6,510 nt of DNA, taken from positions 1-6,510 of the forward strand of contig JAUWBQ010000101.1 in the NCBI GenBank assembly GCA_030601645.1, in the 5' to 3' direction. The stretch comes from Candidatus Bathyarchaeota archaeon. Its GTDB lineage: Archaea > Thermoproteota > Bathyarchaeia > TCS64. Shown piece after piece: positions 653-5,548 of this stretch; position 1 is the stretch's first letter, and each line of letters starts with the position of its first letter. The notes beneath the pieces were generated by a model. The model did no database searches. It was not told where the DNA came from and worked only from the letters and a program-made list of their open reading frames with translations. The position numbers and the translations under genes were made by a program.

Positions 653-1627
653 ATGTCAAATTTGTCGACCAGTAGGGACGTGAAACTCCAGTTATACCGT
701 ACAATGATACGCATCCGGACATTCGAGAACAGCGCTCGGGTCCTCATCAAAGAGGGCAACATCCCCGCGCGCTTCGGTATGTACACGGGGCAGGAGGCCG
801 TCGCTGCAGGGGTGTGCGCCCACCTCGACGCAGGCGATCAGATCGGGAGCACCCATAGGCCTCTGGGCCACATGATAGCGAAAGGCTGCAGTCTCAAGGG
901 TCTGATGGCGGAGCTCTGCGGCAAGAGGACTGGCCTTAACAGGGGAAAGGCCGGCCCCTACCATGTCTTCGACCCGTCCGTCGGCGCCCTGGGGGCTAAC
1001 GGCATCGTCGGAGGGAGCGTGCCCATGACCGCCGGCTATGCCCTGTCTCATCAGTTGAAGGGCGACGGGGGCGTGGCAGTGGCGTTCTTCGGCGAGGGGG
1101 CTTCAAACCAGGGAGGGGTGCAGGAGACCCTGAACCTGGCCGCGTGCTGGGACCTTCCCCTGATCTTCGTCTGCGAGAACAGCTCCCCCGAGGTCCAGAG
1201 GATGCTCGGCCACGAGATCGACTACCCCCAGCTGAGCATAGAGAGGGTCTCAGACAGGGCGGGAGCCTACGGGATGCCGGGGGTCAGCCGCGACGGCTGG
1301 GACGTCTTCGAGGTCTACGAGGCAGCCGGGGAGGCCGTGAGCAGGGCGAGAAACAGTAAAGGCCCGACGTTGCTCGAGTTCAAGGTCCATCAGATCGAGG
1401 GGAACCTCGAGGGAAGGCTTGAGGCCAACGAGGACGAGAAGGTCTGGTGCCCCATCTACCGTCTCAGGGAGAAGCTCATGGCTGAGGGGGTCTTGACCTC
1501 TGACCTCGATCTGGAAATAAGGAGCGAAGAGCGGGAGGCCGTCGATGAGGCCGTCAGCTTCTCCTTGCGTAGCCTCGATCCCGAGCCGTTGGATGCCTTC
1601 ACCGACGTCTTCGCCGGAGGGAACTAG
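653..1627 (+). CDS. 2-oxoacid dehydrogenase E1 alpha subunit-like protein (degenerate ThDP site)
   Basis: 324 residues, the usual length for E1 alpha of the pyruvate/acetoin/branched-chain 2-oxoacid dehydrogenase complexes, which decarboxylate 2-oxoacids with thiamine diphosphate (ThDP) and pass the acyl group to lipoyl-E2. Family signatures are clear: STHRPLGH (66-73), GLNRGKAGPYH (94-104), ANGIVGGSVP (115-124) and the long ThDP-Mg block 147-176. The overall look is closest to acetoin dehydrogenase (AcoA-type) sequences. Key positions are altered. The Mg2+-ligand Asp of GDG is Glu148 (GEG), the second Asn of ENN is Ser177, the Tyr two residues on is Pro179, and the usual RxxGHxxxD loop with its conserved His is replaced around 243-257 (FKVHQIEGNLEG). 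Its stop is one base before the E1-beta start, so the two subunits are co-translated. It may be a divergent E1 with changed chemistry or a structural partner of beta. Family certain, activity doubtful. Confidence 0.9.
   Translation: MSNLSTSRDVKLQLYRTMIRIRTFENSARVLIKEGNIPARFGMYTGQEAVAAGVCAHLDAGDQIGSTHRPLGHMIAKGCSLKGLMAELCGKRTGLNRGKAGPYHVFDPSVGALGANGIVGGSVPMTAGYALSHQLKGDGGVAVAFFGEGASNQGGVQETLNLAACWDLPLIFVCENSSPEVQRMLGHEIDYPQLSIERVSDRAGAYGMPGVSRDGWDVFEVYEAAGEAVSRARNSKGPTLLEFKVHQIEGNLEGRLEANEDEKVWCPIYRLREKLMAEGVLTSDLDLEIRSEEREAVDEAVSFSLRSLDPEPLDAFTDVFAGGN
1616..1621 (+). promoter_or_regulatory. Ribosome binding site fixing the E1-beta GTG start
   Basis: GGAGGG lies seven bases before GTG at 1629, inside the 3' end of the alpha gene. 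It supports this start over the in-frame ATG at 1545, which would add 28 residues of no family resemblance. Confidence 0.6.
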
Positions 1628-1628
1628 G

Positions 1629-2600
1629 GTGACTGGGCGGATAGTCACCTTCGGAGAGGCTTTGAACGAGGCACACAGGCTGGAGATGGCCAGGGACCCC
1701 AACGTCGTAGTGTTCGGGGAGAACGTGTCCAGCGGCTGGCGGGTTGCGACGAGGGGGTTGAGAGAGGAGTTCGGCAGGGAGCGGGTGAGGGACGCCCCCA
1801 TCACGGAGACCGCGTTCATAGGGATGGGGGTAGGCGCCTCCATCCTAGGTGTCAGGCCCATCGTGGAGCTGATGCTGGTGGACTTTGGCCTCGTGGCGAT
1901 GGACCAGATCCTGAACCAGATGGCCAAATCCCGGTACATGTCAGGCGGGGCGGTGAACGTGCCCATGACGCTTAGGGCCATATATGGCGCCGGGACCTCG
2001 GCGGGAGCCACCCACTCCGAGAGCCTCTACTCCATATTCGCCCACATGCCGGGGATGAAGGTCGCCGTGCCCTCAAACCCCTACGACGCCAAGGGGCTAC
2101 TTATCGCCAGCATAAGGGACGATGACCCGGTGCTGTTCATCGAGCACCGCCTGCTCTACGACCTGGAGGGGCCTGTCCCAGAGGGGCCGTACGAGATCCC
2201 CCTGGGCGTAGCCAACCTGGTCAGGGAGGGGAGCGATGTGACCATTGTGGCGACTGGGCTGATGGTGTGCAAGGCAGTGGAGGCCTCCGATCGGCTCAAA
2301 CCTGATATCAGCGTCGATGTGATCGACCCCCGCACCCTCGTGCCCCTGGACGAGGAGGCGATCCTGAGATCCGTGCAGAAGACCGGGAGGCTCGTGGTGG
2401 TGGACGAGGACTATGAGCGATGCGGCTTCAGCGCAGAGGTAGCGGCCATCGCCGCTGAGAAGGCCTTCAAACACCTGACATCACCGGTCATACGAGTAGC
2501 CACGCCAAACGTGCCGATACCCTTCAGCCCAGTGCTGGAGAAGCATTTACTACCGTCAACCGACAAAATCGTGAGAGCCGTCAATGGGCTGTTGGGCTGA
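1629..2600 (+). CDS. 2-oxoacid dehydrogenase E1 beta subunit (transketolase-like)
   Basis: 323 residues from the GTG start, essentially the standard length for E1 beta. It forms the alpha2beta2 E1 enzyme with the preceding gene product, binding the aminopyrimidine side of ThDP. The sequence is well conserved: FGENV (29-33), GLREEFG (43-49), RDAPITE (54-60) with the catalytic Glu60, DFGLVAMDQILNQMAK (85-100), YMSGG, THSES with His129 at the position of the active-site His, HMPGMKVAVPSNPYDAKGLL (139-158) and the C-terminal lobe motifs VIDPRTLVPLD and KTGRLVVVDED. In contrast to its partner alpha subunit it shows no obvious loss of active-site residues. The exact substrate (pyruvate, acetoin or a branched-chain 2-oxoacid) cannot be read from the sequence. 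No E2, E3 or lipoylation gene follows; the next gene is convergent 17 bases on. Confidence 0.92.
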   Translation: MTGRIVTFGEALNEAHRLEMARDPNVVVFGENVSSGWRVATRGLREEFGRERVRDAPITETAFIGMGVGASILGVRPIVELMLVDFGLVAMDQILNQMAKSRYMSGGAVNVPMTLRAIYGAGTSAGATHSESLYSIFAHMPGMKVAVPSNPYDAKGLLIASIRDDDPVLFIEHRLLYDLEGPVPEGPYEIPLGVANLVREGSDVTIVATGLMVCKAVEASDRLKPDISVDVIDPRTLVPLDEEAILRSVQKTGRLVVVDEDYERCGFSAEVAAIAAEKAFKHLTSPVIRVATPNVPIPFSPVLEKHLLPSTDKIVRAVNGLLG

Positions 2601-2617: not shown

Positions 2618-3031
2618 TTATGGACTCTTCCAGGTTTCCAGAGCCCTCTCAAGGCCAATTTTTCCAACCGCGCCCACTACCCTTTCAATGGGTCTACCGT
2701 TCTTGAAGAGTATGAAGTTGGGGATGCTCATGACCCCAAAGCGTCTTGCGAGCTCCTGATTCCGATCGACGTCAACTTTCGCGAAGAGCACCTTCCCGGT
2801 GTATTCTCTGGCCAAGGCCTCGAAGACCGGTCTCATCATCGTGCATGGAGAGCACCAGCCAGCCCAGAAGTCTACGAGCACCGGAAGGTTGGTCTTCGCC
2901 AGAGCGCCGTCGAAACCGGAACTTGACAGTTCTAGAATCTCGCCGTCTTTCCAGGGGCCTCTATCTGGTGCTGTCATCAATCGTTTCAGCATCTGCTCCT
3001 TGATCCTTTCCAACTCTTTGTCTTCCGCCAT
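2618..3031 (-). CDS. Thioredoxin
   Basis: 137-residue cytoplasmic thioredoxin, a dithiol-disulfide reductase for other proteins. The active site is WCSPC (Trp59, Cys60, Cys63), within LVDFWAGWCSPC; Ser replaces the usual Gly between the cysteines, a natural variant that can shift redox potential. The cis-Pro loop is SIPNFILFKNG with Pro104, and KVDVDRNQELARRFGV supplies the central strand and helix. A charged N-terminal extension of about 35 residues (DKELERIKEQMLKRLM) precedes the fold; similar amphipathic leaders occur on other archaeal thioredoxins as I recall, and it carries no signal peptide or membrane segment. The ATG at 3031 is preceded by GGGTG on the minus strand about 10 bases upstream. 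The gene is divergent from the NifU-domain gene and convergent with E1 beta. Its reductase and targets are not visible here. Confidence 0.93.
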   Translation of the reverse strand: MAEDKELERIKEQMLKRLMTAPDRGPWKDGEILELSSSGFDGALAKTNLPVLVDFWAGWCSPCTMMRPVFEALAREYTGKVLFAKVDVDRNQELARRFGVMSIPNFILFKNGRPIERVVGAVGKIGLERALETWKSP

Positions 3032-3189: not shown

Positions 3190-3408
3190 TTGAGAGAAGA
3201 AGTCGCACAAGCGTTGGAAGATGTTCGTCCGAGTCTGCAGATGGACGGTGGAGATGTCGAGCTTGTAGACGTTGAGGACGGTGTGGTCAAGGTGAAGCTT
3301 ATGGGCGCCTGCGCAGGATGCCCCATGGCCCAGATGACCCTCAAGATGGGCATCGAGAGCTACCTCAAGAAGAAGGTTCCAGGAGTAAAGACAGTAGAAT
3401 CAGTCTGA
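3190..3408 (+). CDS. NifU-like C-terminal-domain Fe-S scaffold/carrier protein
   Basis: 72 residues from the TTG start, consisting solely of the NifU C-terminal (Nfu-type) domain. These small proteins bind an Fe-S cluster between subunits of a dimer through a CxxC motif and pass it to target proteins. The family signature is complete: an N-terminal helix ending in [17 protein letters not shown] (about 12-28), then [12 protein letters not shown] with Cys41 and Cys44, and a closing helix [12 protein letters not shown]. The N-terminal IscU-like and ferredoxin-like domains of full-length NifU are absent, as in many archaeal and Nfu-type proteins. A longer reading from a TTG at 3055 exists in frame but would cover the TATA box and adds no recognisable domain. 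The putative zinc protease gene follows after 17 bases, probably on the same transcript. Confidence 0.9.
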
Positions 3409-3425
3409 GGGCAGAAAAAGACACG

Positions 3426-3899
3426 ATGCTGCTCATAAAAGATATAGGTAAAGCCAAGACCTACGGCGACATCTTCGTTCTGGTCAAGAAGGCTGTGAGG
3501 AATTCTCTAGGCGAGCATAGGGTAGGCCTGATGCTGTACCTGGGTAACCTCCCCATGCACGTGGGGGCGTTCCACCCCATGGGGACCAACGACATAGTCC
3601 TCAACAGGCGATTGATGGAGGCCGCGGCGAAGACCGAGCCCAAGTGGAGGGCCTATGTCTTCTCCATCCTCCTCCACGAGTACCTCCATAGCCTGGGCTA
3701 CGCGGATGAGAGGCAGGTCAGGGGGCTGACATATAGGATCTGCATGGAGAACTTTGGGAGCGATCATCCCGTGACGGAAGCGGCCGTGGCCGGTCCATGG
3801 GTGAACCTCAGCCACGAGGCGTTCGAGGCCATCGGCGAGGACATAGATCTAGAGCGTGTTCGTGACTTCGAGCGTATAGACAGCGGCTATATCATCTAG
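3426..3899 (+). CDS. Putative small metzincin-like zinc metalloprotease (HExxHxxGxxD)
   Basis: 157-residue soluble protein of no family I can name. The helix VFSILLHEYLHSLGYADE (78-95) carries a textbook zinc-protease motif: His84, Glu85 and His88 (HEYLH), followed by Gly91 and Asp94. The spacing HExxHxxGxxD is that of metzincins, with Asp in the third-ligand place as in snapalysin. Met107 in YRICMENFG might be the metzincin Met-turn, but this is speculative. The N-terminal half (LMLYLGNLPMHVGAFHPMGTNDIVLNR) looks like the mixed strand region that precedes the active-site helix in such folds. There is no signal peptide, pro-region or membrane segment, so it should act inside the cell. ATG at 3426 follows the NifU-domain stop by 17 bases; only a weak GAGG is seen upstream. 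A longer frame back to 3318 merely overlaps that gene. Catalysis is inferred from the motif; zinc binding is likely, substrate unknown. Confidence 0.75.
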   Translation: MLLIKDIGKAKTYGDIFVLVKKAVRNSLGEHRVGLMLYLGNLPMHVGAFHPMGTNDIVLNRRLMEAAAKTEPKWRAYVFSILLHEYLHSLGYADERQVRGLTYRICMENFGSDHPVTEAAVAGPWVNLSHEAFEAIGEDIDLERVRDFERIDSGYII

Positions 3900-4497: not shown

Positions 4498-5040
4498 ATG
4501 GAACGAGATCAAGTAGCTGATTTCAGTTTTGTAGACGAGACCCATCGCCTGATGCGAGACGGGGGCCTGTTCTTGGTCGCCTCTGGGAAGGACGGCAAGC
4601 CAAATACCATGACCATAGGCTGGGGCCTGGTCGGTACCATGTGGAGGAAACCCTTCTTCACGGTCGCGGTCAGGCTGTCCAGGTACACATACAAATTGAT
4701 GGAGGAATCGGATACGTTCACTGTCTGCCTCCCCGCCAAGGGTATGGAGGAAGCCCTGGATGTCTGCGGGACTAAGTCAGGCCGAGACATGGACAAATTC
4801 AAGGAGCTGAACTTGACGGCCAAAAAGGGCTCCAAGGTCGACTCTCCATACATAGCAGAGTGCCCCATACATTACGAGTGCAGGGTGGCGTACAAGACTG
4901 AGCTGAAACCGGGACAGCTCATAGACGAACTAGAGAAGGACGCTTACCCTGGGGGCGACTACCACGTCCTGTACTTTGGGCAAATCTTGGGCGTCTATGC
5001 CGAGAAGGATGCGGCGGAGAAGCTACCTTTAAAGTCGTAA
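4498..5040 (+). CDS. Flavoredoxin / flavin reductase-like FMN-binding protein
   Basis: 180 residues with the FMN-binding split-barrel fold of the flavin reductase-like family (DIM6/NTAB, flavoredoxin). Signature segments are PNTMTIGWGLVGTMWRKPFF (35-54), VAVRLSRYTYKLMEESDTFTV (56-76) and CGTKSGRDMDKF (90-101), which together form the FMN site in relatives. Flavoredoxins carry electrons or reduce flavins in the cytoplasm, often with ferredoxin, rubredoxin or flavodoxin as partners. There is no signal peptide or membrane segment. The ATG start is supported by GGTG five bases upstream. A flavodoxin gene follows after 34 bases in the same direction, so the pair could pass electrons to each other; that is inference from position. 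The minus-strand zinc-ribbon gene is divergent, 86 bases away. The true electron donor is not evident. Confidence 0.9.
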   Translation: MERDQVADFSFVDETHRLMRDGGLFLVASGKDGKPNTMTIGWGLVGTMWRKPFFTVAVRLSRYTYKLMEESDTFTVCLPAKGMEEALDVCGTKSGRDMDKFKELNLTAKKGSKVDSPYIAECPIHYECRVAYKTELKPGQLIDELEKDAYPGGDYHVLYFGQILGVYAEKDAAEKLPLKS

Positions 5041-5074
5041 ACAGAGATGAATGTAAAAACGGGAAGTTACGCGC

Positions 5075-5548
5075 ATGAAGATGCTCGTCGTTTATGACTC
5101 CCGCTCCGGTAACACGGAGGCCATGGCGTACGCGGTGGCCGAGGGCGTGGAATCGGAGGGAGTCGAGGTTGAGGTCAAGAAGGTAGACGAGGCGTCGGTG
5201 GATGAGCTTCCTGAGGTTGACGGCATCATCCTCGGCTCCCCCGTTTACTACGGTCTGCCCTCAGCCAAGATCAAGGAGTTCATAGACGCCTCCGTCAAGT
5301 ATCACGGAAAGCTCGACGGCAAGGTGGGCGGGGCCTTCGCCAGCAGCGGAGGAACCCACACGGGGGCGGAGACCACCATCATCGCCCTCACCGAGGCCCT
5401 CCTCGTCCATGGCATGGTCGTCCAGGGGACCTCGGGTACGAACCACTACGGCGCCGCCTCCGTGGGCGCCCCAGACGCAGATGACTCAAACAACTGCAGG
5501 AAGATGGGCGTCCGGCTGGCCAAGCTTGTCAAAAAGCTCCATGGCTGA
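5075..5548 (+). CDS. Flavodoxin family protein (short WrbA-like)
   Basis: 157-residue flavodoxin fold protein binding FMN. The phosphate-binding loop is SRSGNT (9-14) after strand MLVVYD. The second FMN loop is GSPVYYGLPSAKIKEFID (54-71), and ASSGGTHTGAETTI (89-102) plus NHYGAASVG (123-131) match the third loop of the WrbA/NAD(P)H:quinone oxidoreductase group. It is shorter than typical WrbA (about 200 residues) and lacks its extra insertion, so it may be an electron carrier rather than a quinone reductase. ATG at 5075 is used because the first strand begins there; a second in-frame ATG lies two codons on. The ribosome site is weak (GGGAAG about nine bases upstream). It is probably co-transcribed with the flavoredoxin gene 34 bases upstream, and converges with the phosphorylase gene. 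Confidence 0.9.
   Translation: MKMLVVYDSRSGNTEAMAYAVAEGVESEGVEVEVKKVDEASVDELPEVDGIILGSPVYYGLPSAKIKEFIDASVKYHGKLDGKVGGAFASSGGTHTGAETTIIALTEALLVHGMVVQGTSGTNHYGAASVGAPDADDSNNCRKMGVRLAKLVKKLHG

Follow-up and report, generated by a model that had tools for sequence, protein, structure and literature searches.

Introduction

An Asp/Asn metal motif is treated as a signature of enzymes that use thiamin diphosphate (ThDP), and in PDHA1, the E1-alpha subunit of human pyruvate dehydrogenase (PDH), Tyr198 contributes to metal binding through its main-chain carbonyl, so that the identity of its side chain would not matter. Here, we describe an E1-type gene pair in a 6,510-nucleotide stretch of DNA from a Candidatus Bathyarchaeota archaeon (contig JAUWBQ010000101.1 of assembly GCA_030601645.1; the whole stretch is hereafter called the window), whose alpha subunit belongs to a clade in which the catalytic half is kept, while the Asn metal ligand and both active-site entrance loops are replaced, making it a natural test of what these loops and this ligand are for. 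According to PMC2663715, the equivalent of the catalytic beta Glu activates the ThDP aminopyrimidine, a role is also assigned to H128-beta, the counterpart of the beta His of the present pair, and delivery to lipoate is the proposed task of the outer loop of alpha with its His. PDB entry 1ols, in its title, ties His291-alpha and His146-beta' of human branched-chain 2-oxoacid dehydrogenase (BCKDH) to reductive acylation. We found no description of a remodelled E1 clade of this kind in the open-access literature searched.

Identification of a remodelled E1 clade

The pair comprises an E1-alpha-type gene of remodelled, clade-specific form (653..1627, forward strand; 324 amino acids from an ATG start, with residue n at window position 653+3(n-1)) and an E1-beta-type gene (1629..2600, forward strand) encoding two transketolase-type domains (PF02779 and PF02780; Pfam), for which GTG at 1629, right behind the alpha stop codon, is the most likely start within the open frame. 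Alpha matches E1_dh (PF00676) with 175 bits against a cut-off of 22 (Pfam), as expected of an alpha2beta2 E1, and PDB entries match the E1 fold across its whole length. Its scores lie under both PDH E1-alpha equivalog cut-offs of NCBIfam (TIGR03182, 235.9 versus 393.85 bits; TIGR03181, 166.3 versus 411.35 bits), and beta lies over that of the PDH E1-beta subfamily NF006667 (342.1 versus 321 bits). The adjoining beta also carries the catalytic Glu and His of alpha2beta2 E1s, and the pair is presumably an E1-type alpha-beta ThDP enzyme of alpha2-beta2 form.

Alpha was compared in an alignment of 161 clade rows (the window, 17 loci and 143 proteins), 60 canonical E1 loci from other genomes of its class, by inference Bathyarchaeia, and 121 rows from bacteria, the last consisting of one Oscillibacter protein and the 120 listed matches of a search with it, and thus of narrow diversity. 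The canonical rows are loci, drawn from some of the 87 genomes whose only E1 is canonical, and certain genomes gave two; one row (L118) comes from a clade genome, G015, which has it as a second E1, and a cut copy of this locus (L028) was excluded. Eight of the canonical rows hold X, for masked bases or a stop codon within the match, and clade locus L015 is partly masked. Evolutionarily, the clade forms one side of a branch with a Shimodaira-Hasegawa-like approximate likelihood-ratio (SH-aLRT) support of 100 and a stem of 1.28 changes per column, in a tree of 80 of the 342 rows made by a quick method with the trait columns included and with long-branch warnings; canonical Bathyarchaeota rows do not form one side of any branch in this tree. 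Relatives of the window are 95% to 64% identical among the 120 matches listed, those named being Candidatus Bathyarchaeota, as are all 15 loci of at least 62% identity. E1-alpha was matched in 105 of 256 genomes of the class, where a gap separates 17 clade members of at least 61% identity (plus G245, with two fragments) from the others, at no more than 51%. Among 398 genomes of the phylum, the clade form turned up only in G001 again, with the next best match 49% identical. The most divergent clade member is L114 (genome G240), at 59% identity.

Metal site and inner loop

Ser177 (1181-1183, forward strand) occupies the column of the Mg-ligand Asn of the ENNxY motif, and this column holds Ser in 160 of the 161 clade rows (the remaining one, P0113, has a gap) versus Asn in all 181 canonical rows (60/60 Bathyarchaeota, 121/121 bacterial), bearing out the preliminary description of this locus, which had read Asn to Ser as the loss of a metal ligand. 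That description had also placed the altered cofactor region at 1094..1423, and these limits are right, running from Glu148 (1094-1096) to the end of residue 257 at 1423. Its reading of Glu148 itself as a lost Asp ligand did not survive the comparison. Gly147-Glu148-Gly149 (1091..1099, forward strand) stands at the GDG position, and Glu is found in 159/161 clade rows, 14/60 canonical and 1/121 bacterial rows; because the 14 canonical GEG rows all keep ENNLY and the loop His (13 as GHS, one as GHH), Glu148 is not evidence of ligand loss. Of the five parsed E1s in genomes that the phylum search added, three have GEG as well (19 of the 23 loci of that search were parsed, 14 of them from genomes of the class search), and loss of Asp at GDG was ruled out as a marker of the clade, being present in canonical relatives too. 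Glu148 may still bind metal.

The inner loop that begins at Ser177 is rebuilt as SSPEVQRMLGHEIDYPQLSIERVSDRAGA (residues 177-205; 1181..1267, forward strand), with 29 residues versus 24 in canonical E1. Counted from the ligand column up to the conserved motif that follows, the stretch is 29 residues long in 135 of the 136 parsed clade rows and 24 in 50/51 parsed canonical Bathyarchaeota and 115/115 parsed bacterial rows, giving a fixed clade insertion of five residues by length, where a phmmer alignment places four near Pro179 (1187-1189, forward strand). Since the insertion sits at this very place, Pro179 cannot safely be equated with Tyr198 of human PDHA1, as had been proposed; the equivalence depends on the alignment. 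The loop brings in a new His187 (1211-1213, forward strand; His in 160/161 clade rows), which with Ser178, Leu185-Gly186 and Pro192-Gln193 is among the new near-invariant residues of the clade. Overall, 21 clade-specific columns of alpha passed the specificity filter, including column 177 and seven inserted columns. L114 has Pro-Arg-Arg-Gly in its inner loop where others have Pro-Glu-Val-Gln.

Outer loop, lost histidines and the catalytic half

The outer loop, at the place of canonical TYR..GHSxxD, is rebuilt as FKVHQIEGNLEGRLE (residues 243-257; 1379..1423, forward strand) and reads KVHQIEGNLEGR or a near variant in most clade rows. The loop His column (251) holds His in 59/60 canonical Bathyarchaeota and 121/121 bacterial rows (180/181 together) and in none of the 161 clade rows, which have Asn (113), Asp (20), a gap (12) or six other letters (16), in agreement with the earlier statement that this His is replaced; the segment KVHQIEGNLEG, assigned there to residues 243-257, really spans 244-254. 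We take this His to be the equivalent of BCKDH His291-alpha, and His146-beta' that of the beta His of the present pair. In L010, L011, L012, L015 and L114 the loop is nearly absent, reduced to a few residues, and the first four (L010:6001-6945, L011:6001-6936, L012 and L015) are natural loop-minus members of the clade.

Two further alpha histidines are gone, for a total of three. Gly42 (776..778, forward strand) stands where 57/60 canonical Bathyarchaeota and 121/121 bacterial rows have His (the 161 clade rows include 127 with Gly and 26 with Ser), and Leu71, in His68-Arg69-Pro70-Leu71-Gly72 (854..868, forward strand), replaces the His of RGHGH: Leu, Val, Ile or Met in 160/161 clade rows (one masked), versus His in 53/60 canonical and 121/121 bacterial rows. 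The pair His68-Arg69 and the diphosphate-pocket segment GANGIVGG (residues 114-121; 992..1015, forward strand) are intact, as first noted, although the claim that the rest of the fold was untouched went too far, given Gly42, Leu71 and the 21 clade-specific columns.

In beta, compared over 17 clade and 59 canonical rows with no bacterial ones, the catalytic Glu of PITE (1806..1808, forward strand) is kept in 17/17 clade rows, and the His of THSE (2013..2015, forward strand), equivalent to H128-beta, in 16/17, with Pro in L114. Fifteen columns of beta are clade-specific, some of them adjoining active-site motifs; the changes include Thr and Glu on either side of His-Ser and Leu in place of Phe in the segment IVELMLVDF.

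Both subunits are under purifying selection and similarly constrained. The ratio of nonsynonymous to synonymous substitution rates (dN/dS, NG86) is 0.045-0.189 in alpha and 0.021-0.185 in beta (11 pairs of loci per subunit; 10 of the 22 values come with a dS above 1), as a clean reading frame under selection had led the first reading to suppose. Because the whole clade shares the changes and dN/dS is low, decay is very unlikely, and recurrence in 160 clade sequences together with low dN/dS rules out a sequencing error or a pseudogene. The question raised at the outset, whether a whole clade shares the altered residues, is answered positively for Ser177 and the altered loop; Glu148 is common to the clade as well, yet not confined to it.

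E2 and other partner enzymes

A strong match to E2, the lipoyl-bearing partner of canonical E1, was found in 1 of 18 clade genomes, all of them from relatives of the window (G245, with its two E1 fragments, being counted), versus 78 of the 87 genomes in the class that have canonical E1 only (Fisher p 3e-12). No E2 match whatsoever appeared in 16/18 clade genomes, among them G001, a chromosome record of 2.3 Mb, and the E2 catalytic domain PF00198 was matched in 2/15. The exception, G015, also has a canonical E1 pair, its second, on a different contig, and its E2 is encoded next to that pair; G004 has a weak E2-like match in a 279-amino-acid frame, with no lipoyl domain seen in the stretch read. 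Loss of the outer, E2-docking loop would have a simple reason in the near-constant lack of a lipoyl-bearing E2. Small PF00364 proteins of G001, G010 and G002 were considered as stray lipoyl domains; for one of them, L030, this was rejected, as the modified Lys lies in the context EAMKMEN, presumably the biotin form.

Other ThDP-type enzymes are encoded elsewhere in the clade genomes (TPP_enzyme_N in 17/17; Transketolase_N over cut-off in 13/17, with the other four lacking such a match), and ThDP is therefore probably available in these cells. The neighbouring phosphoribosyl pyrophosphate (PRPP) synthetase-type gene of some loci (below) suggested the pair as the sole transketolase, an idea not supported, since 13/17 genomes have their own Transketolase_N.

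Genomic context

A BLAST comparison of 17 sequences sorted the neighbouring genes into groups, and Pfam was used to type a single representative of every group named here. Two synteny groups emerged. In the first (the window, L001, L003, L004 and L013), a thioredoxin gene and its flanking genes are shared downstream. The thioredoxin of the window (2618-3031, reverse strand; Pfam typing of thioredoxins covered the window and L007) has an N-terminal extension and a CSPC motif, which is CAPC or CGPC in the other four loci, and beyond it lie an open reading frame (3318-3899, forward strand) beside a NifU-like gene, with relatives in the same four loci, and tandem flavin reductase-like and flavodoxin-like genes (4498-5548, forward strand), whose relatives keep this order in L001, L004 and L013. 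The open reading frame contains HEYLHSLGY, which we take to be a zinc-protease-like motif, and gave no Pfam or NCBIfam match over 3420-3896. Directly upstream of E1-alpha and on the same strand, 5 of 15 Bathyarchaeota loci (L001-L004 and L013) carry an MgtE-type divalent cation transporter gene, typed by Pfam on L003.

In the second group (L005-L008 and L014), M50/AN1-type and PRPP synthetase-type proteins are encoded downstream, followed in L006, L007, L008 and L014 by an Arcadin-1-like protein and by a thioredoxin-like protein distinct from that of the first group, its motif being CPTC, CVTC or CPLC. A pyridine-nucleotide disulphide oxidoreductase is found in L005, L007, L008 and L014, and a two-gene 2-oxoacid:ferredoxin oxidoreductase upstream in L006, L008 and L014. 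The two groups share no pathway, and the neighbourhood was set aside as a guide to the substrate. Separately, open frames of 670-683 amino acids surround canonical E1-alpha matches in L096, L100, L110 and L126, perhaps natural alpha-beta fusions.

Proposed function and alternatives

Functionally, we posit, with a probability of roughly 0.6, that the pair is a ThDP enzyme working on its own, independently of E2, in which the diphosphate/metal site and the entrance loops have been rebuilt and which would no longer serve a 2-oxoacid dehydrogenase complex. This is the simplest explanation because the residues that make the enamine are kept, whereas the parts that hand over to lipoate are rebuilt or discarded. 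ThDP would be held with a divalent metal by Glu148 and possibly by Ser177 or new inner-loop residues; an enamine would form from a 2-oxoacid or ketose, and either a small-molecule acceptor (in a carboligation or a protonation) or a soluble electron acceptor would then receive it in place of lipoate, with the new inner loop and its His187 shaping the second half-reaction. Such an enzyme might be a carboligase, a lyase, a non-oxidative decarboxylase or a non-lipoyl oxidoreductase. The metal site appears changed, not necessarily lost, with the inserted loop offering further candidate ligands that include His187, and changed cofactor chemistry is possible. The preliminary description, in preferring changed chemistry or a changed role to decay, had the direction right and overstated the loss of cofactor: Glu148 is tolerated in canonical E1s, sequence does not locate an equivalent of Tyr198, and the ThDP-activating and catalytic beta residues persist. 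Less probably, this E1 lineage may have left the lipoyl-linked dehydrogenase role altogether by rebuilding its cofactor-phosphate and metal site, with the Asn ligand standard in ThDP enzymes gone, the new loop with the invariant His binding the metal or cofactor in its place, maybe a different metal or cofactor form, and the enzyme supporting a reaction that is not known for the E1 fold.

Several observations weigh against an E2-independent ThDP enzyme. Without the Asn ligand and a cofactor-contacting His, ThDP would be bound more weakly, unless the new loop makes up for their loss. The alpha model is a monomer without ligand, of low confidence in both loops (predicted local distance difference test, pLDDT, 56 at 181-190 and 64 at 251-260). 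The Fisher p overstates independence, because the contrast is one clade against the rest; completeness figures are absent for the genomes in the E2 count; and E2 is likewise missing from 9 of the 87 genomes that have canonical E1 only, so that its absence by itself does not force remodelling. The lipoyl carrier GcvH is encoded in 14/15 clade genomes, and a lipoyl acceptor may therefore still be at hand. L114 has lost the beta His, and the conserved neighbours vary between subclades with no common pathway.

Alternatively, the alpha site would have given up ThDP-Mg, and the pair would use a different cofactor or metal, or else a form of thiamine that can do without an Mg-bound diphosphate. The replacement of an invariant Asn by Ser, the loop with invariant His187 and the three lost histidines, all under purifying selection, would fit, as would the MgtE-type gene upstream of some loci, although this adjacency may be mere synteny. 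We regard this alternative as unlikely, given that Arg69, GIVGG and GxG persist, as does the beta Glu that activates ThDP, that Glu and Ser are able to bind metal and that ThDP is probably available to these cells.

It is rather improbable that the pair is still an oxidative 2-oxoacid dehydrogenase that delivers to another dithiol acceptor, either lipoyl-GcvH or a thioredoxin encoded nearby. Besides GcvH in 14/15, an E3-type dimerisation domain is encoded in 15/15 clade genomes, and both synteny groups have a thioredoxin-like gene close to the pair; against this, the lost loop and His are the very ones proposed for lipoate transfer in PMC2663715, the window thioredoxin gene is on the opposite strand, and GcvH perhaps serves glycine cleavage only.

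That the pair is a pseudoenzyme, a catalytically dead or regulatory E1-like scaffold, would agree with the lost metal ligand and loop His, the lack of an E2 to serve and the missing beta His of L114, but we judge it quite improbable, because beta Glu and His persist in 17/17 and 16/17 clade rows, new invariant residues have arisen at the entrance to the active site, within the inner loop, and the subunits are similarly constrained. For the same reasons, persisting catalytic residues of beta and invariant new residues, the purely structural or regulatory role first suggested is the less likely one. Finally, we give very little credence to an ordinary E1 with drifted loops and an unchanged reaction whose canonical E2 was missed in incomplete genomes or through divergence (most genomes are metagenome assemblies of unstated completeness, and G004 does have its E2-like match), since the changes are near-invariant rather than drifting and E2 is missing even from the chromosome record of G001, with strong matches in most relatives.

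Comparison with known systems

An E2-independent ThDP enzyme would point to an uncharacterised reaction in uncultured archaea, carried by genes that are now labelled pyruvate dehydrogenase or acetoin oxidoreductase. The latter label, acetoin:DCPIP oxidoreductase alpha, comes from the source databases and is attached to some clade and bacterial matches alike; the likeness lies in annotation and size, yet all 121 bacterial rows keep the Asn ligand and the loop His. Transketolase and DXS share domain types with beta, through weak matches, but no PF00456 match was reported for alpha, and the transketolase of most clade genomes is a separate protein. The nearest relatives in the class are the canonical E1s of other Bathyarchaeota, at best 43-48% identical over the full match, which share GEG in a minority of rows yet retain Asn in 60/60, the loop His in 59/60 and RGHGH in 53/60. 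With the alpha2beta2 E1s of PDH and branched-chain complexes (human, 1NI4 and 2OZL; Thermus, 1UMB; Geobacillus stearothermophilus, 1W85 and 3DUF), the pair shares the fold, the alpha-beta pairing, the beta Glu and His, the alpha Arg and the GIVGG pocket. Unlike them, the clade has Ser for the Asn ligand, an inner loop longer by five residues, an outer His loop that is replaced or deleted, two more alpha histidines gone and no cognate E2 found in its genomes, that of G015 adjoining the second, canonical E1.
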